Shown: positions 33,897-42,519 of the stretch, one piece after another | How the letters are laid out: every line of letters starts with the position of its first letter | Position numbering within the stretch: position 1 is the stretch's first letter | Source: Candidatus Aegiribacteria sp. MLS_C | GTDB lineage: Bacteria; Fermentibacterota; Fermentibacteria; Fermentibacterales; JCC-6 | DNA: 57,407 nucleotides | Reading direction: 5' to 3' | Assembly: GCA_002030045.1 (NCBI GenBank) | Contig: LQBI01000006.1 | Span: forward strand, 1-57,407 | The notes under the pieces: generated by a model | Told to the model about the DNA's origin: nothing | What the model saw: only the letters and a program-made list of their open reading frames with translations | The model's database searches: none | Program-made: the position numbers and the translations under genes

Positions 33897-33990
33897 GGAG
33901 AGGTGGCCGAGCTGGCTTAAGGCGTACGCCTGCTAAGCGTATGAGGGGCGTTGAGCCTCTCCGAGGGTTCAAATCCCTCCCTCTCCGCCA
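33897..33990 (+). tRNA. tRNA-Ser (GCT anticodon)
   Basis: 94-nt class II tRNA with a long variable arm. Acceptor GGAGAGG pairs with CCTCTCC, anticodon loop CTGCTAA gives GCT, variable arm ATGAGGGGCGTTGAGCCTCT, T-arm GAGGGTTCAAATCCCTC, G73 and encoded CCA. Serine tRNA genes are common insertion points; the low-GC island starts right after it. Confidence 0.96.
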
Positions 33991-34930
33991 GCCGCTCCGC
34001 TCCGGTACTGTCGGCCACCACGCACATCACCCGGACTTCCGACTCATGGAGTTCAGCGTGCGGCGCCCTCCGACTGCTCCGTCCCTGGACACTTTCCAGC
34101 GACTCCGCAGGAGTTGTGACTGGTAATACTCTATCGGTAATTGTCAGGAGCTCTTCTCCAGCATACCCTTCAAGAAGTATCTGCTCAGGAACCTCCGGAA
34201 ACACTCCATAACCCTGGTTCAGCAGCACTTCCAGTGTGCTGCCGACAAGACTAACTGGATCATTCGATAAGGCCACATCACGCCAGCCATCACCATCGAA
34301 GTCAGCGCAGGCGGCATAGTGCTTCATAAGAGAAGTATTGACAAAATAGACATCGGGGTCACCGAATAAACCATCCCCCAGTCCGGGCAGAATCGAAAAC
34401 GACGAATAGGGAACGATGTATGAAGTTCCAGGCAGAACGGCATCGGGCACTTCATCACCCGTAACGTCGCTGAAGGAAACGGAATAAACGTCATCAATTC
34501 CCGCAGGGAAAGTATATGGTTCGGAAAAGGTGCAATCCCCCAGGCCAAGCCTTACCCTCAGCGAGTAATTGCAGCATCCTGCAATATCAAGATACTCGTC
34601 ATCGTTCACAGGCCAGATAGTGTAGAATAGAAATGCTTCATCAGGGTATACGATGGCTTCAGTGAATGAACCATCCCCGTTGCCCAGCATCACTCCGTAG
34701 CAGCTGTCAATGCACCCGAAAGCCAGGTCGATGTTGCCGTCACCGTTGAAGTCACCATGGTCTATGTCATGCGGCTTGACGGATAAAGGATATGCAACAG
34801 GATCGGAAAACACCGGCCATGCCGCTGCTCTGCCTCCTGAAAACAGGATGCATGCCAGAACAACAACTGGAAAAACAAGCTTCTTTACGGAAAATACCTT
34901 CCGTGAGGCACTAATTGAGGACGTGTACAT
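33917..34930 (-). pseudogene. Truncated secreted FG-GAP/VCBS repeat protein
   Basis: The start at 34930 gives MYTSSISASRKVFSVKK and then a signal peptide (VFPVVVLACILFSGGRAAA). The body has FG-GAP calcium-binding repeats: DHGDFNGDGNIDLAFG, LGNGDGSFTE, FSDVTGDEVPDAVL, CADFDGDGWRDVALS. Around residue 275 the protein ends in sense and the frame runs through the 111-bp repeat and then antisense through tRNA-Ser (REGFEPSERL), stopping at 33917. The final ~65 residues are therefore not native. The usual C-terminal sorting domain is absent. Best read as a gene cut by the repeat/junction. No ribosome site seen; a TTG at 34978 is an alternative start. Confidence 0.6.
34013..34123 (+). repeat. Left copy of a 111-bp inverted repeat bounding the island
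   Basis: Aligns without gaps to the reverse complement of 40775-40885, 97 of 111 positions identical by hand count. Begins 22 bases after the tRNA-Ser 3' end. Contains short self-complementary parts (GGACTTCC-type hairpins). Frames through the two copies are not both open and substitutions do not favour third codon positions, so it is probably non-coding. Confidence 0.75.
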
Positions 34931-35027
34931 TTGATAGATTTCTATTCTATATTCTGGATGGGAAAGACACTTCGACAAGTACGGAGCTGCTGCGTAATAA
35001 AGGAGCAGAATCCAGTTCGGAGGATAT

Positions 35028-35780
35028 GTGCCCGTTAAAAATGCTAAAATGTTCCTGCGTGATAAAGCAATTCCCGCATTGCGGCATCGCAGTTTCTACT
35101 TCGATGTAACCAGTATCAGACAGCTGCTCCGTGAAGAGGATATTCGAATTGAGCATAAAACACTGACTCGTTATTTGCATACGCTCATGGAAGATTCTTG
35201 TATATACAACGCGGGTCGTGGATGGTACTCAAGTATTGAAAAGAAATTCCAACTCGGTACTGAATCGGTAAAAGAGATTATTTCGGTTATTGATACGAAG
35301 TTTCCTCTTCTTGAGTATTCCTGCTGGTCAACCCAGCAGATCAACCGGTTCATGCATCACCTTCTGGCGAAATACGTTCGGTATGTTTACACTGATAAAG
35401 ATGCTATGCCCTCTCTCTTTAATTATCTCGGTGATTCAGGTTATGATGTGTATCTCAATCCCACCAGGCGTGAAGTGGATAAAAGCTTCAGTATAGAGAA
35501 GGATGTCGTTGTGATTCGTCCTACTATCTCAAAGTCACCAGTGCGACGTGATCATAACGCTCCAATTGAGAAAATACTGGTGGATCTTTGTGTTGAACTG
35601 GAATCAGTTCCAATTATGGATCGCTCTGAATTTCAGAGAATGGCTCAGAACCTGGTGATGTCTGAGCGTATTGATATGGCAAAGCTCTTAAGTTATGCAC
35701 GGCGTCGAAAAATAGAGTCAGGAGACCTCTTTGAGGAACCGCAATCAATCATCTCCACTTTCGCGCGAAAGTGGAGATAG
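35028..35780 (+). CDS. Winged-helix protein, AbiEi-like partner of the AbiEii toxin
   Basis: 250 residues from a GTG with strong ribosome site GGAGG five bases before. N-terminal ~65 residues look like a winged helix-turn-helix (DVTSIRQLLREEDIRIEHKTLTRYLHTLMED), followed by a domain with WSTQQINRFMHHLL, YVYTDKDAMPSLFNYL and DVVVIRPTISKSP, and an all-helical C-terminus. This layout (wHTH plus a second domain, directly upstream of an AbiEii gene) matches AbiEi-type antitoxins, which repress their operon and neutralise the toxin; from memory it is closest to the DUF6577 group, not searched. First gene of a four-gene operon; ~43-45% GC. Confidence 0.55.
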   Translation: MPVKNAKMFLRDKAIPALRHRSFYFDVTSIRQLLREEDIRIEHKTLTRYLHTLMEDSCIYNAGRGWYSSIEKKFQLGTESVKEIISVIDTKFPLLEYSCWSTQQINRFMHHLLAKYVRYVYTDKDAMPSLFNYLGDSGYDVYLNPTRREVDKSFSIEKDVVVIRPTISKSPVRRDHNAPIEKILVDLCVELESVPIMDRSEFQRMAQNLVMSERIDMAKLLSYARRRKIESGDLFEEPQSIISTFARKWR

Positions 35781-35805
35781 TTGATTTCGGAACGTATAGG
35801 ATTGC

Positions 35806-36882
35806 ATGATATCTCGAAAGTGTTTTGATCAGGAATGGATTGACAGCAAGCGGAGTGAGCTGCGAGTCCGGAATCCTGTCCTTCTTGAAAAATGCATCCA
35901 TGCTTTGCAGTTGCTTGGCCACCTCTCAGAAAAGAGCGGCTTCGACTTTGTGTTCAAAGGCGGGACAAGCCTTGTTCTTTTGTTGGAGGATATTCGCCGG
36001 CTGTCAATTGATATCGATATAGTAAGTTCTGTCGAGCAAGACGTCTATATGCCCATGCTTGAAGACATAGGCAATTCCTATCCCTTCTTGAGGCAGGAAG
36101 AAGATCAGCGAGGTGATGGTCGGCTGCCAAGGCGAAGACATTTCAAATTCTTCTATAATTCTACCTACTCGCAAAGGGAAGATTATGTTCTTCTCGATAT
36201 CCTTGAGGAAGAGAACCATTTTCCTGAGACACAGCTGCTTCCTGTTCGAACACCATTTGTAGAGGTTGACCGAGAGGTTATGGTTCGGGTTCCCACCATA
36301 GATTGCCTCACAGGCGATAAACTTACTGCGTTCGCACCCGGTACGGTGGGAGTTCCTCTCAAAATAGAATCTAGCATGCAGGTTGCAAAGCAGCTTTTTG
36401 ATGTTGGCGAACTCTTCAATGTCATCGAAAACCTTGAAATGGTGAAGAGAGCATACAACGATATCTTTACTGCTGAAAACGGTTACAGAGGGAACCGATT
36501 TTCTTTGATGGATGCTCTTGATGATACGATTGATACTTCAGCCCTGATATGTCAGTTGAATCTTAAGGGCGGGATTGCAAATGATCACACAAGACTGATT
36601 TCGAATGGCATTTCACGTATACAAAATCATCTCATAGGTCCCCCGTACAGAATTGATGACGCAAAGGTATCTGCAGCCAGGGTTGCGTATCTGGCAGGCT
36701 TACTGAAACAGGATGCGATTCCATCAGATATTGCAGGTGCCCGGTTCAATCGGGATAAAGCTGATGAACTGCGCGATAAGCGAATCGAGAAATGGCATGT
36801 TCTTGACAGATTGAAAGCGGTTAATATTGAGGCGTTCCATTACTGGCTAAAGCTGGAAAACCTTGACCGACAGGAGAAGTGA
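35806..36882 (+). CDS. AbiEii-family nucleotidyltransferase toxin
   Basis: 358 residues. Nucleotidyltransferase motif 1 is FVFKGGTSLVLLLEDIRRLSIDIDI: GGTS at 52-55, metal Asp69 and Asp71; third Asp probably Asp131 (YVLLDIL), and the conserved Lys in GDKLTAF (Lys172). Known AbiEii proteins (type IV toxins) add nucleotides to tRNA acceptor ends or bind GTP and cause abortive infection. Starts 25 bases after its AbiEi-like partner with AGGA ribosome site, and is followed 18 bases later by the nuclease gene. All catalytic residues seem intact, so it is probably active. Confidence 0.8.
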   Translation: MISRKCFDQEWIDSKRSELRVRNPVLLEKCIHALQLLGHLSEKSGFDFVFKGGTSLVLLLEDIRRLSIDIDIVSSVEQDVYMPMLEDIGNSYPFLRQEEDQRGDGRLPRRRHFKFFYNSTYSQREDYVLLDILEEENHFPETQLLPVRTPFVEVDREVMVRVPTIDCLTGDKLTAFAPGTVGVPLKIESSMQVAKQLFDVGELFNVIENLEMVKRAYNDIFTAENGYRGNRFSLMDALDDTIDTSALICQLNLKGGIANDHTRLISNGISRIQNHLIGPPYRIDDAKVSAARVAYLAGLLKQDAIPSDIAGARFNRDKADELRDKRIEKWHVLDRLKAVNIEAFHYWLKLENLDRQEK

Positions 36883-36900
36883 AATGGTAAGGGCATACCT

Positions 36901-38031
36901 GTGATCCGCTTCCTGCATACTGGAGACTGGCAGCTGGGTATGACCAGGCACTTCTTCTCCGAAGGGGTTGGGGAAAGGTATACCCAATCCCGGGTCGATG
37001 CCATCCGTGAGCTTGGCAGAGTTGCCGAGGAGGAAGAGTGCAGCTTCATGCTAGTCTGCGGGGATGTATTTGACTCGAATTACGTTGACAGAAAAACAGT
37101 TTCCCGGGCTGTTGAAGCTCTCAAGAATTTGCCTGTTCCCGTATATCTGCTTCCCGGTAATCATGATCCGCTGGATGCGGCTTCTGTCTATAGCAGCAGC
37201 GCTTTCCTGGATAGAAAGCCAGCTCATGTACATGTGATCGATTCCTCAGATCCCATTACAGTCGAGGAAGGCCTTGAGATCGTTGGTGTGCCGTGGTTTT
37301 CGAAGCGTCCCATGAGAGATCTTGTTACTCCGGTACTGGACGGTCTAGAACAGTCTGCCAGTACTGTTCGCATCTGTGCTGCTCACGGTATTGTGGATTC
37401 CTTAGCTCCCGACCCCGATAGTCCCGAGCTCATTTCACTTGGGGCTGCTGATAAAGCCATTTCCCGGGGTAAGATTCATTACCTGGCTCTTGGAGACAGG
37501 CATTCAGTTACCGATGTTGGTGATACCGGGCACATCTGGTATTCGGGTACTCCCGAATCTACCGATTTCAAAGAGGTAAAATCCGGATTCGCACTGGTTG
37601 CCCGGGTCAGCGAAGAAGACGTTTCCGTACAGGAAGTGAAGATCGGAAAGTGGTCCTTCATAGAACGAGCTGGAATCGACATGAACACAGAGGAGGATCT
37701 GGAGGCTTTGCGGGAGTGGTTCGAGGGGCTGGAGAACAAAGAACGCCTGGTTCTGAAGCTGCGTTTTGTTGGGTCTGTTTCATTGTCCCTTCATCGTGAT
37801 TTGATGGAGTTTGTCGATCGAGCAAAGGAAATAGCCGGTGCCGTTGAGACACGTTACAAAGATTTGACTGTTATTCCGGAGGACTCGGACTTCAGCGAGC
37901 TGGGGCTGTCCGGTTTTGCCCAGAAGACCGTTGAGCGTCTTCGGGAATTGGATGCCAACTCGGACTCTTCTTCCAGCGGTGCCCGGGATGCACTTGCTCT
38001 TCTTGTAAGACTCGCCGGAGGGGATTCATGA
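36901..38031 (+). CDS. Mre11/SbcD-like DNA nuclease subunit
   Basis: 376 residues from a GTG. Calcineurin-type phosphoesterase motifs: HTGDWQLG (Asp9, Gln11), CGDVFDS (Asp55), PGNHDP (Asn87, His88), AAHG (His162), LGDRHS (Asp199, His201). Two positions deviate from canonical SbcD, which has DxH and GHxH; both look like features of a known divergent branch with YSGTPE after the last motif, recalled from memory. A C-terminal capping/dimerisation domain follows (~250-376). The stop overlaps the next start by four bases, so the subunits are made together. Confidence 0.75.
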   Translation: MIRFLHTGDWQLGMTRHFFSEGVGERYTQSRVDAIRELGRVAEEEECSFMLVCGDVFDSNYVDRKTVSRAVEALKNLPVPVYLLPGNHDPLDAASVYSSSAFLDRKPAHVHVIDSSDPITVEEGLEIVGVPWFSKRPMRDLVTPVLDGLEQSASTVRICAAHGIVDSLAPDPDSPELISLGAADKAISRGKIHYLALGDRHSVTDVGDTGHIWYSGTPESTDFKEVKSGFALVARVSEEDVSVQEVKIGKWSFIERAGIDMNTEEDLEALREWFEGLENKERLVLKLRFVGSVSLSLHRDLMEFVDRAKEIAGAVETRYKDLTVIPEDSDFSELGLSGFAQKTVERLRELDANSDSSSSGARDALALLVRLAGGDS

Positions 38032-40658
38032 AACTGATCCGGCTTCGCTTACGCAATTACCGGGGTATTGCTGATTCTGAGGTGAAATTCGGCTCGAATG
38101 GTATAACAGTAGTTGAAGGGCCTAATGAAGCAGGGAAAACAAGCCTTGGAGAAGCCATCAGACTGCTTTTCAAATATCCTGCTTCCGGCAGGAGCAGTGC
38201 TGTTAAAGCCATCAAGCCTGTATTGAGGGACGTGGGGTCCGAGATAGAGCTTGAAATGGAGACCGGTCAATATCATTTCACATACACCAAAACGTATAAC
38301 AGAAATACGGAGACCGTCCTGAAAGTAACAGAACCCGGTGTTGAGAACCACACAGGGCGAGAGGCTCATGATCGAGCAGCTGAAATACTCCAGGAGACCA
38401 TCGATGTCGATCTCTGGGAAGCCCTGAACATTGAACAGGGTGAAGCTGTGGAGCAGGCCGACCTTTCCGGCCAGGCATCATTGTCTGCGGCACTTGATGA
38501 TGCAGCCGGTGGCGGCCGGGCAGATCCGACCGGTGATAATGTGTTTGAGAAGGTAAGTAATGAGTACGAACGCTACTATACGAAAACAGGCAGGGAGAGG
38601 AAGGAACTTCAGGATTCGAATAATGCGCTGGAGGAGGCGGAGTCGAAGGTGGAATCGCTGAAGACTCGAATTCGCGAGTTGGAAGATGATGTCGATCGAG
38701 CTGCAGAACTGGAGAATAAACTTGAGAATCTCAATTCGCGTGAAACAGAGTTAAGGGATCAGGTAAAGGAGTATAAGCAGTCCCTCAGCGATATTGAGCA
38801 GCTGGAGAACGAACTTGCCTCCGCAAAACTCAAACTGGAATCGGAACAGAAATCAAAGCTGACGGCGGAGCGAGACCTGCAGGAGCGCCGGGAGCTTTGC
38901 GAGAGGATTGCCGCAGCCCAGAAGGAGCTGTCTGAACTCAGGGGATCCAGTTCTGCATCCATCGAATCGCTGCAGGGTGCCGAGGACTCACTGAAGAAGG
39001 CAAAAGCCGATGCGGCCGAAGCTGAAAATACATTCAAAGAAGCCAGAGAGTATCGCGATCTCTGCCAGGCTGACTGTGACTATTTCAACGACAGATTGCA
39101 TCTGGTGCAGATGCTGGAACGCAAGGCCAGGGTCGATAAGGCCAGAGAGGCTGCGGCCATGGCTGAAGAACTCCTTGAACAGAATCGCGTAGATGAGAAA
39201 GCACTGAAGGATATTCAGAAAGCCGAACGCAGAGTTTTGGAGTCAAAGGCGAAGCTTGATACGGGAGCTCCCAGCGTGAAACTGAGAGGTCTGAATGATC
39301 TCGAGTATCAGATCGATGGCAGGTCAGCACACATTTCGCTGGATGAAGTGGAAACCTTCCCTGTTTCCGATCGACTCAGTGTTACAATTCCCGGATCCCT
39401 GCAGATAGAGGTCGAGGCTGGCTCGAGTGCGTCACAGCTTTTGGATGACGTGGAAAAGGCGGAGAGAAAACTTTCAGGGCTGTGCGAGGACGCCGGGGTG
39501 AGCAGTGCGGATGAGGCCAGACAGTCCTACAATGCAAGAATAGAAGCACAGAAAACACTTGATAAAGAGGAAGAAATCAAGACGGACAACCTTCGCGATC
39601 TGTCTTACGATGATCTCGAGAGAAGAATCATTACCCTTGAGAAGGGAGTGCCCGCTTATTTGGAGAATCGCTCTTCAGACTGCGAACTTCCGGATGACCT
39701 GGATTCCGCTAAAGAGAAACTGCGTAAGGCAGAGATAACTCTGGACGAAACCTCCAGTGCATGGGAAGAGGCAAGGTCCAATCAGGAATACTCGCGCAAG
39801 GTTCGGGACGAATTGAGAGAACAGCATCAGGAATTGAGAATAAAGCTTGATCTAAAGGAAGAAGAGCTAAAACGAGACGAAGAGAAACTCGCTCTTCAAA
39901 GGGAGAAATCTTCTGATGATGATCTTGAGAAGGAGTACTCTAAACTCTCAGAACGCGCAGATGAGCAGAAGAAGAGAGTTAATGCTGCTGATGAAGCTCT
40001 GCAGGATCTTAATCCTGTTAAGGTTCGAGCCCTTTTGGAGACGGCAGAAGGTTCTTTGGTGACCGTATCGAAGGAACTGGAAGATCTGAAGGAAGAACAT
40101 ATCCAGGTTCGAACTCGCTTGAAATTTCATGGAGAAGAGGGCTTGCATGAAAAACTCAACAATGCTCAGGCGCACCTTGATCATGTGAAACGCGAAAACG
40201 AAGCGACGATTCGCAGAGCCGATGCTGCAGAATTACTCTATACCGTCATGAAAGAGGAACGGGATAAGGCGCGGCTTGCCTATGTAGCTCCCCTCAAAGC
40301 TAAGATCGAAAGACTCGGCCGACTTGTGTTCAACAGTACATTCGAGGTTGAAATAGATGAGGACCTGACTGTTGCAAGCCGGGTGCTCGATGGTCGCCAG
40401 GTGCCTTTCGAATCGCTTAGCGGAGGGACTAAGGAGCAGATATCACTGATATCCCGTTTGGCCTGCGCTATGACAGTTTCCGAGAGTGGTGGCGCGCCTC
40501 TCATACTTGATGATGCACTGGGTAACACGGACCCGGAGCGGCTTAAGCTGATGGGGGCGGTACTTGCCAGGGCAGGCAAGGAGTGCCAGATCATAATTCT
40601 TACATGTGTACCGGAGCGATACAGCAATGTAGGAGAAGCGACCGTAGTTCACTTGTGA
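38028..40658 (+). CDS. Rad50/SbcC-like AAA ATPase with long coiled coil
   Basis: 876 residues. N-terminal Walker A VEGPNEAGKTSLGEAI (35-43), C-terminal signature FESLSGGTKEQISLISRLA and Walker B APLILDDALGNTDPERL; between them lie two long charged coiled coils (about 170-390 and 500-740). There is no CxxC zinc hook at the apex; instead a beta-rich insert (VKLRGLNDLEYQIDGRSAHI to VTIPGSLQIEVEAG) sits between the coils. With the Mre11-like partner it should form an ATP-gated nuclease acting on DNA ends or hairpins. Closest in style to SbcC and YhaN-type proteins. Last gene of the operon. Confidence 0.8.
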   Translation: MKLIRLRLRNYRGIADSEVKFGSNGITVVEGPNEAGKTSLGEAIRLLFKYPASGRSSAVKAIKPVLRDVGSEIELEMETGQYHFTYTKTYNRNTETVLKVTEPGVENHTGREAHDRAAEILQETIDVDLWEALNIEQGEAVEQADLSGQASLSAALDDAAGGGRADPTGDNVFEKVSNEYERYYTKTGRERKELQDSNNALEEAESKVESLKTRIRELEDDVDRAAELENKLENLNSRETELRDQVKEYKQSLSDIEQLENELASAKLKLESEQKSKLTAERDLQERRELCERIAAAQKELSELRGSSSASIESLQGAEDSLKKAKADAAEAENTFKEAREYRDLCQADCDYFNDRLHLVQMLERKARVDKAREAAAMAEELLEQNRVDEKALKDIQKAERRVLESKAKLDTGAPSVKLRGLNDLEYQIDGRSAHISLDEVETFPVSDRLSVTIPGSLQIEVEAGSSASQLLDDVEKAERKLSGLCEDAGVSSADEARQSYNARIEAQKTLDKEEEIKTDNLRDLSYDDLERRIITLEKGVPAYLENRSSDCELPDDLDSAKEKLRKAEITLDETSSAWEEARSNQEYSRKVRDELREQHQELRIKLDLKEEELKRDEEKLALQREKSSDDDLEKEYSKLSERADEQKKRVNAADEALQDLNPVKVRALLETAEGSLVTVSKELEDLKEEHIQVRTRLKFHGEEGLHEKLNNAQAHLDHVKRENEATIRRADAAELLYTVMKEERDKARLAYVAPLKAKIERLGRLVFNSTFEVEIDEDLTVASRVLDGRQVPFESLSGGTKEQISLISRLACAMTVSESGGAPLILDDALGNTDPERLKLMGAVLARAGKECQIIILTCVPERYSNVGEATVVHL

Positions 40659-41103
40659 GGCTCACAATGGAAAACTGCAAAGCTGCAGTTAGCTTGAATA
40701 ATCCATGATGCGACAGAAAAGAATCAGAAACTAAAGAGCTGTATTCACCAACAGGAACATCGAATATGTGACCACCGGTCACAACTCCTGCGTAGTCGCC
40801 GGACAGTGTCCTGTGAAGGAGCAGCGGGAGGGCGCCGCGCGCTGAACTCCATGAGCCGGGAGTCCGGGTGATGTGCGCGGTGGTCAAGGTTTCCCGCCTG
40901 AATCTTAAAGAAATTCAATCATCTTCCGTATATTCCGGCAGAAAGAAGGTTATCACCAGCTTCAAAATTCTCCGCCATTGCTTTTTCGATAACCTCGCCA
41001 TTTTCCATCCGTGCTGTCCCTGATCTCGAGGGAGGGTGTTCCCCGGCGTGGACCAGGAGTGCATATTACATGTCCGGTTCCGGGTCCCTGAAGGGAAGGC
41101 ACA
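40659..41103. other. 445-base gap after the island operon
   Basis: Holds a weak 7-bp hairpin AACTGCA/TGCAGTT at 40673-40690 (no T-tract), the right 111-bp repeat at 40775-40885, and AT-rich sequence to about 41010 that still looks like the island. A 29-codon frame on the minus strand (40919-41008, MENGEVIEKAMAENFEAG...) with a possible ribosome site may be a remnant; not called as a gene. From about 41010 composition returns to that of the flanks, with GGGAAGG before the next start. Confidence 0.4.
40775..40885 (-). repeat. Right copy of the 111-bp inverted repeat bounding the island
   Basis: Inverted relative to 34013-34123, 14 mismatches in 111 ungapped positions. In this copy the outer ends are self-complementary (TGACCACCG / CGGTGGTCA), an extra 9-bp terminal pairing that is degraded in the left copy. 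Stop codons interrupt it in the frame that is open in the left copy. Confidence 0.75.
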
Positions 41104-42519
41104 ATGAGGGTGACGCTGGTCTATCCGAACTACGGTTCGGGGAAGAGGTCGAAGTACTTCCCCTTCGGACTGGCCTACGTCGCCGCGTCCCTGTCCCGGG
41201 CGGGGGTGGCGGTGTCCGTTGTGGACATGGAAGGGGATGACCTCTCCGTGGAGGATGCCGTCCGGAGGATCCTGGACAGCGATCCCGACATCGTTGGCTT
41301 CGGAGGCATGGTCACCAGGTACAGGATAGTCAGGGAACTTGGCAGAAGGGTGCGTTCCCTCCTGCCGGACGTCTTCATGGTGGCCGGCAACAGCGGCGCC
41401 TCGACACTTCCGGGGCTCTACCTGGAAAAATGCCGCCTGAATGCTGTTGTGCTTGGGGAGGGGGAGGCCACTTCCCTCGAGCTTGTCTCGGCCCTGGACT
41501 CAGGTTCGGAATGGAGGGAAGTCCCCGGAATAGCTTTCCAGGACGGCGACAGGACCGTCCATTCCCCTCCGAGGCCCCTGCTGCCGGACCTTGATTCGCT
41601 GCCTTATCCCGCCTGGGACCTCTTCCCGGTGGAGAGCTACATAAGGAGCATGGACCACCGCCTTAAGACGCAGCCCCACATGGAGGTGGTGGCAAGCAGG
41701 GGATGCCCCTACAGCTGCGTGTACTGCTACCACATCTACGGCAGGAGGGTCCGCAGGAGGTCTCCCTGTTCCGTGGTCGCTGAGATCGAGGAGCTGGTGG
41801 ACAGGTACGGAATCGAGTACACGGGTTTTCCCGACGACCTCTTCACCAGCGACAGGGAGTTCGTAATGGAGGTCTGCGGGCTTCTGCGGCAGAGACTGCC
41901 GAATATAAGGTGGAGCTGCATCGGCCGCGTGAACATGGTGGACCCCGAGATGCTGTCCGCCATGAGGGAGGCAGGCTGCGACTGGATCTCCTACGGAATA
42001 GAGTCCGGTAGCGACAGGATGCTGGACCGCATGAAGAGGATGGTCACCGCCGAGGACTGTCTCCGGGGTATCCGCATGACCCGGGAGGCGGGCATACACG
42101 CTGAGGGTTCCTTCATGATAGGCATGTTCGGCGAGACGGAGGAGACGGTGAGGGATACGGTGGAGTTCTGCCGCAGGGCGGACATCACGGCTCCGATGCT
42201 CTTCGTCACCCCCTATCCCGGTACCGAGATCTTCGGTGAAGCTTTGGAGAAGGGCCTGATTGACGACATCGAGGACTTTCTTGAGAGAATGAACGCGGCG
42301 GACCATCTGCTCGTGAACCTGACCGACATGCCGGACCATGAACTCCACCGCCTGAAGGAATGGGCCCAGGGCAGGATAGGCAGGGGGTATCTTCTCAGGA
42401 AACCGCTCACAAGGGTCCCCAGGCTCCTATGGAAGCACATCAGGCTCAGCGGCGGAGGCGGACTCGTCCGGGACGCGAGGGAACTGGCCAGAAGCTTCCT
42501 GGGGAGAGATCCATCCTGA
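41104..42519 (+). CDS. Radical SAM enzyme with N-terminal cobalamin-binding domain
   Basis: 471 residues. B12-binding domain: MRVTLVYPNYGSGKRSKYFPFGLAYVAAS, VGFGGMVTRY, VVLGEGE. The radical SAM core has SRGCPYSCVYCYH (CxxxCxxC), DDLFTSDREF, WISYGIESGSDRML and SFMIGMFGETEET. Same architecture as the protein at 14821-16251 but clearly a different subgroup. Alone between the island and a convergent serpin gene, so context says nothing about its substrate. Confidence 0.85.
   Translation: MRVTLVYPNYGSGKRSKYFPFGLAYVAASLSRAGVAVSVVDMEGDDLSVEDAVRRILDSDPDIVGFGGMVTRYRIVRELGRRVRSLLPDVFMVAGNSGASTLPGLYLEKCRLNAVVLGEGEATSLELVSALDSGSEWREVPGIAFQDGDRTVHSPPRPLLPDLDSLPYPAWDLFPVESYIRSMDHRLKTQPHMEVVASRGCPYSCVYCYHIYGRRVRRRSPCSVVAEIEELVDRYGIEYTGFPDDLFTSDREFVMEVCGLLRQRLPNIRWSCIGRVNMVDPEMLSAMREAGCDWISYGIESGSDRMLDRMKRMVTAEDCLRGIRMTREAGIHAEGSFMIGMFGETEETVRDTVEFCRRADITAPMLFVTPYPGTEIFGEALEKGLIDDIEDFLERMNAADHLLVNLTDMPDHELHRLKEWAQGRIGRGYLLRKPLTRVPRLLWKHIRLSGGGGLVRDARELARSFLGRDPS

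Follow-up and report, generated by a model that had tools for sequence, protein, structure and literature searches.

A four-gene operon joining an AbiE-type pair to an atypical Mre11/Rad50-like pair on an inserted island in Candidatus Aegiribacteria sp. MLS_C

The window considered here is the whole analysed stretch of DNA, 57,407 nucleotides of contig LQBI01000006.1 from Candidatus Aegiribacteria sp. MLS_C. It carries an operon of four intact open reading frames (ORFs) on one strand (+), in the order AbiEi-like, AbiEii, SbcD-like and SbcC-like. An AbiE-type toxin–antitoxin pair is thus directly followed by an Mre11/Rad50-like pair, and the whole lies within an inserted island. The main features are as follows.

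35028-35780, + strand: DUF6577/AbiEi-like antitoxin, GTG start, 250 amino acids, assigned from profile matches
35806-36882, + strand: AbiEii-type nucleotidyltransferase toxin, 358 amino acids, with FKGGTS..RRLSIDID, GDKLTAF and KQLFDVG
36901-38031, + strand: SbcD/Mre11-like nuclease, GTG start, 376 amino acids, with GDRH in place of GHxH
38028-40658, + strand: SbcC/Rad50-like coiled-coil ATPase without a CxxC zinc hook, 876 amino acids
34924-34953, + strand: weak candidate sigma-70-like promoter of the operon, a consensus match only (9 of 12 positions)
35739-35790, + strand: hairpin with 26-base arms spanning the antitoxin stop codon, before the toxin start (folding z = -4.9)
33897-33990, + strand: tRNA-Ser(gct), the landmark of the insertion
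33991-40905, no strand: inserted low-G+C island, approximate limits

The AbiEi-like and AbiEii genes are separated by 25 bases and the AbiEii and SbcD-like genes by 18 bases, while the SbcD-like and SbcC-like genes share an ATGA overlap. This order and spacing, read from the ORFs, agree exactly with the first-pass annotation, which was also right about the catalytic residues D69 and D71 of AbiEii and D55 of the SbcD-like protein. The four genes are likely to be co-transcribed, and their layout suggests a single transcript. The candidate promoter is the sole forward promoter-like match near the operon start, and the consensus scan returned no such match between the AbiEii and SbcD-like genes; it found fewer promoter-like sites here than in shuffled sequence.

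The island is delimited by its composition, by its position directly 3' of the tRNA-Ser gene, and by an empty site in a genome of the same genus. The G+C content is 44-52% across 34-41 kb, compared with about 60% in the surroundings. In the related genome, G013, which has the matching upstream gene, tRNA-Ser is separated by 190 bp from the downstream orthologue of the gene starting at 41104, and no island intervenes. This locus is an empty insertion site, and together with the drop in G+C it bears out the earlier description of the operon as lying on an island of foreign composition.

The AbiE pair and the SbcDC-like pair

The antitoxin matches Pfam DUF6577 (E 1.6e-42) and the PADLOC AbiEi model PDLC02235 (E 1.5e-45). 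The AbiEi assignment comes from PADLOC profiles only, the Pfam name being DUF6577, and these matches do not settle membership of the winged helix-turn-helix families COG5340 and COG4861. The AlphaFold model of the antitoxin is of low confidence (pLDDT, the predicted local distance difference test score, of 50), which is too poor for judging a winged helix-turn-helix. The toxin matches Pfam AbiEii (PF08843; E 1e-15, 58.8 bits against a cut-off of 22.5) and PADLOC PDLC02299 (E 4.6e-104). In this protein FKGGTS is followed, after a spacing of 15 residues, by DID and then by GDKLTAF and KQLFDVG, which corresponds to the AbiEii/DUF1814 pattern (hG[G/S]x15DhD, the lysine of motif III and the aspartate of motif IV). 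Residues G52, G53, D69, D71, K172 and D199 are invariant in six relatives, and mutating these motifs in AbiEii abolishes toxicity (PMC3985639). The target of the toxin may be tRNA.

The pair resembles the type IV toxin–antitoxin systems of the AbiE family, such as AbiEi–AbiEii of Streptococcus agalactiae and MenAT of Mycobacterium tuberculosis, in its antitoxin–toxin order, in DUF1814 motifs I-IV and in its AbiEi-profile match. It differs from them in its DUF6577 antitoxin, which is matched by PADLOC AbiEi profiles only, in a motif III that reads KLTAF without the next arginine, in the strong hairpin before the toxin and in the SbcDC genes that follow.

Strong hairpins occupy the same position in G042 (z = -6.5), G128 and G212, with z values from -4.5 to -6.5 overall, and in the latter two genomes their sequence is unrelated to that of the window. 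The junction hairpin is imperfect in G139, G497 and G467, and there is little or none in the other loci; within the type I restriction sub-clade of AbiE it is absent or weak. Hairpins in relatives were located at about 7928-7971 of L002 and immediately 5' of the AbiEii start in L027 and L026. The hairpin goes with AbiE and not with SbcCD. A possible role is to reduce expression of the toxin relative to that of the antitoxin, or it may be an antitoxin operator; AbiEi is known to bind inverted repeats in its own promoter (PMC3985639). Because the hairpin also occurs in G128 and G212, where SbcCD is absent, a role as SbcCD substrate was set aside as the main interpretation. As a plain terminator it would be weak, with a short T tail.

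The SbcD-like protein matches Pfam Metallophos (E 3.9e-11) and retains the motifs GDW, GDVF, GNHD and AAHG. Motif V is GDRH, and GDxH rather than GHxH was found in all 10 readable SbcD relatives, so that the full set of SbcD/Mre11 phosphodiesterase motifs I-V is not present. The SbcC-like protein matches Pfam AAA_15/23/27 (E 1e-11 to 2.5e-9) and Rad50 structures in the PDB (E 3.6e-7). It has an intact Walker A (GPNEAGKT), signature (LSGGTKEQ) and Walker B (LILDDALG), and its ABC ATPase is combined with a long coiled coil, as in Rad50, with helices at 173-412 and 468-768. A beta-rich stretch at 416-463 is predicted near the middle or apex of the coiled coil. These limits come from an AlphaFold model of low confidence, of which the helix and strand positions alone were used, and cautiously. 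No CxxC zinc hook was found in eight SbcC relatives.

Adjacent nuclease and ATPase genes, calcineurin-type motifs, Walker A, an LSGG signature, Walker B and a long coiled coil are all shared with SbcCD and Mre11–Rad50. In contrast to these enzymes, the window pair has GDxH, a DD in Walker B and no hook, and it scores below the NCBIfam cut-offs (SbcD-like, 54.6 bits against 77.65 for sbcd, TIGR00619; SbcC-like, 23.5 bits against 478.5 for sbcc). Because of the low scores, the altered motif V and the missing hook, the pair is classed on sequence as Mre11/Rad50-like by architecture and not as a canonical member of SbcCD. By analogy, the complex may recognise DNA ends or hairpins: SbcCD of E. coli attacks the unprotected telomeres, or hairpin ends, of phage N15 (PMC12624138).

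Lamassu (LmuB/DdmC with LmuA) offers a further likeness, since it also uses a Rad50-like ATPase in defence as a proposed sensor of hairpins or DNA ends (PMC10586767). The nuclease here is nevertheless of the Mre11 type rather than the LmuA effector, the LmuB models match weakly (E 1e-8), and neither LmuA nor LmuC is present among the four operon genes, so the operon lacks the Lamassu gene set.

Recurrence and other genomic contexts

When about 85,000 species genomes were scanned by peptide pattern with AbiEii as the sole query, one AbiEii relative was returned. It lies in a Deltaproteobacteria metagenome-assembled genome of another phylum, G042, on a contig with the order SbcD-SbcC-GajA-GajB-AbiEi-AbiEii, all on one strand. 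The identities to the window proteins are 65% for SbcD, 58% for SbcC, 59% for AbiEi and 70% for AbiEii. Genes for a PLD-SNF2 helicase, a type IIG enzyme and a DUF262-like protein precede this array, so that the locus forms a dense defence island (L012 1140-19901). Its gene order and neighbours differ from those of the window: the Gabija pair, GajA (OLD/TOPRIM) and GajB (UvrD), which is absent from the window operon, stands between SbcC and AbiEi. The first-pass annotation had named as fatal to its proposal the possibility that homologues of the SbcC/SbcD pair never lie beside AbiE genes elsewhere; the linkage in G042 shows that they do.

Both families are rare. Among the 395 genomes of the phylum of G042, 2 contain a close SbcD relative and 6 contain AbiEii-clade genes; in the phylum to which the window belongs, the search as far as it went found a full SbcD copy in 2 of 42 genomes. 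Judged from this rarity, it is very unlikely that random placement would have brought AbiE and SbcCD to lie only a few genes apart. A literature search that scarcely covered subscription journals and preprints found no published description of an AbiE–SbcCD pairing, of AbiEii with hsdS/hsdM or of DUF6577, and to that extent agrees with the first-pass annotation, which knew of no description of the pairing. No relatives turned up in viral contigs scanned with the SbcD and AbiEii alignments. The searches for relatives returned one partial match in an unannotated phage record.

Genome searches yielded 12 AbiEii-clade loci, the window and G042 included. In raw counts, six of the 12 are located within or next to restriction genes, two accompany SbcCD and four have no clear partner; a DNA-attacking partner is thus present in eight. 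The loci other than the window and G042 are listed below.

G353 (L029 5059-13447): hsdM-[AbiE]-hsdS-hsdR, the DUF6577–AbiEii pair lying inside a type I restriction operon
G467: [AbiE]-hsdS, a partial contig resembling G353
G505: AIPR-hsdM-[AbiE], a partial contig resembling G353
G139: type I restriction–modification system, hsdS and hsdR upstream of AbiE
G128: DGQHR protein, IIG enzyme, [AbiE], PLD-SNF2 helicase
G212: [AbiE]-PLD-SNF2
G271, G561 and G497: AbiE without a clear partner
G496: no clear AbiE partner on a short contig, with a helicase on the opposite strand

A search of plasmids gave three AbiEii relatives in all, none of them with SbcCD. The coupling of toxin genes to restriction operons is an established pattern (PMC3710099). 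The AbiE clade in G353, G467 and G505 resembles PrrC/RloC and the HEPN or other toxins of hsd operons in placing a growth-stopping, RNA-directed toxin inside a restriction operon. The AbiE toxin, in contrast, is a nucleotidyltransferase that comes with an antitoxin of its own, and its partner in the window is SbcCD.

The SbcCD branch has contexts of its own, in none of which AbiE was in view.

G018: type IIG restriction–modification enzyme upstream of SbcCD
G224: SbcCD alone among housekeeping genes
G499: frameshifted SbcCD copy, with zeta-toxin-like and ParE-like genes downstream, as read from the sequence
Tsukamurella plasmid: SNF2-type helicase and PIN gene upstream of SbcCD

The context counts exclude SbcC relatives from plasmids of Rhizobium and Sphingomonas, which are too distant at about 27-30% identity. 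On a Burkholderia plasmid (L036 8001-14843), distant SbcDC cousins lie immediately 5' of the anti-phage DUF4297-HerA genes, between two integrase genes.

A possible two-layer defence cassette and its alternatives

The reading given most weight, at about an even chance of being correct, is that the locus is a mosaic, horizontally acquired defence cassette of two layers, in which an SbcDC-like nuclease is accompanied by AbiE as a guard or fallback. In the first layer, the Mre11/Rad50-like SbcDC complex would detect abnormal ends or hairpins in invading DNA and cleave them. The second would be provided by the DUF6577–AbiEii pair, from a clade found repeatedly in DNA-attacking operons (type I and IIG restriction, PLD-SNF2, Gabija neighbourhoods and SbcCD). 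Loss of the operon or disturbance of its expression, for example by a phage, would deplete the antitoxin, and the nucleotidyltransferase would then halt growth. AbiE would in this way serve both as a stabiliser of the cassette and as an abortive fallback. A defence function and a guard role are inferred from the linkage of all four proteins, 57-70% identical, in a second phylum, on a contig that was found through AbiEii alone, and from the occurrence of SbcCD near a IIG restriction–modification enzyme (G018), near restriction and Gabija genes (G042) and, for distant cousins, near DUF4297-HerA. Also in favour of this reading are the restriction contexts of the AbiE clade, which came from unselected genome searches, the AbiEii motifs needed for toxicity, the stabilisation of mobile elements by AbiE (PMC3985639, PMC11062541), the established toxin–restriction coupling and the attack of E. 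coli SbcCD on N15 ends. The earlier proposal of a defence system stands as regards foreign defence-type genes on an island and a recurring linkage of the AbiEii clade with the SbcCD branch. It does not stand as regards a single dedicated four-gene system, since the order differs in G042 and other partners occur. Consequently, the locus is better termed a combination of two portable modules, each of which also has other partners.

Several observations weigh against the two-layer cassette. Just two loci unite AbiE with SbcCD, and they do so in differing gene orders; no defence partner was recognised at four of the 12 AbiE loci, and the AbiE pairs on three Bacteroidota plasmids also stand alone. 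Defence genes cluster for many reasons, nearness is no proof of cooperation, and clustering in defence islands is a sufficient alternative account of the linkage. In its full form this account treats AbiE and SbcCD as chance neighbours, independent cargo sharing a promoter, with neither coupling nor a preference of AbiE for restriction operons. It draws on the different order and spacing in the window and G042, on the SbcCD copies that stand alone among housekeeping genes (G224) or beside other toxins (G499), and on AbiE alone in G271, G561 and the three plasmids. However, the tight spacing and stop-start overlap in the window, the position of AbiE between hsdM and hsdS (G353) or at the edge of hsdM or hsdS (G505, G467), which is closer than island clustering requires, and the joint presence of a rare AbiEii clade and a rare SbcCD branch in two phyla all speak for more than chance, and the explanation is considered possible but somewhat unlikely.

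Closer coupling is also conceivable. A single integrated system, in which sensing or cutting of invader DNA by the SbcCD-like complex directly releases AbiEii to shut down translation, would suit the one operon of the window, the renewed linkage in G042 and the hairpin sensing proposed for Lamassu Rad50-like proteins. Both modules nevertheless occur with other partners or none, Gabija genes separate them in G042, and no fused protein or shared accessory gene was seen. As a conserved system, such a sensor-to-toxin machine is not supported, and this account is regarded as quite improbable. The remaining alternative dispenses with anti-phage action: AbiE would be a pure addiction module of the island, and the SbcCD-like pair an enzyme of DNA repair or element maintenance. 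The inverted repeats of the island and the decayed SbcC remnants described below, which show gain and loss, are in keeping with it, as is the stabilisation of mobile elements, including plasmids and integrative and conjugative elements, by AbiE (PMC3985639, PMC11062541). The MLS_C genome holds no second match to the SbcD-like protein, so a repair role is possible. Restriction and Gabija genes repeatedly adjoin both modules, however, and this explanation is judged about as improbable.

If the pattern behind the two-layer cassette holds, one AbiE clade accompanies nuclease-based defences (type I and IIG restriction, and SbcCD) as a portable module. The range of RNA-directed toxins known to be coupled with restriction operons would then widen to include nucleotidyltransferases, and the window would point to an uncharacterised Mre11/Rad50 branch that likely acts against invading DNA. 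A bolder extension, which is doubtful at present, would make the GDxH, hook-less Mre11/Rad50 subfamily a dedicated anti-invader nuclease and DUF6577–AbiEii a general restriction-associated guard that monitors this nuclease and other DNA-attacking systems, with its release under the control of the junction hairpin. If true, this guard role would amount to a general rule linking nucleotidyltransferase toxins with DNA restriction.

Repeats and remnants at the island ends

Three further features mark the ends of the island.

34015-34124, no strand: left arm of a 110-base inverted repeat near the left end, 88% match to the right arm
40774-40883, no strand: right arm of the repeat, ending in TGACCACC / GGTGGTCA (about 40769-40886)
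33917-34978, - strand: divergent FG-GAP-repeat ORF at the left end, whose frame continues through the repeat into the tRNA gene

The 3' end of the FG-GAP-repeat ORF reaches into the repeat and the tRNA, and the ORF is therefore probably truncated. Inspection by eye of the right island end revealed no duplicated tRNA attachment site, which leaves an integrase-type insertion unsupported. The 110-base repeat has just two copies in its own genome, and 13 more diverged copies occur across eight other genomes of the genus; none of the copies in seven loci tested lies beside a tRNA. It is possibly a small mobile repeat with TGACCACC ends. In G008, a decayed C-terminal SbcC remnant (L009 321-739) is followed about 110 bases on by a copy of the repeat, which indicates that SbcC and the repeat were kept together elsewhere in the genus. 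Another decayed C-terminal SbcC remnant is present in G022 (L008 4571-4942), and the two remnants point to repeated gain and loss of the cassette. A sequence resembling a short segment of the window to the right of the island (40910-40971) lies about 15 bases after the tRNA-Ser gene in G023, a placement that also supports the island limits, and is present in G008 and G009; it is another dispersed or ancestral element of the genus.

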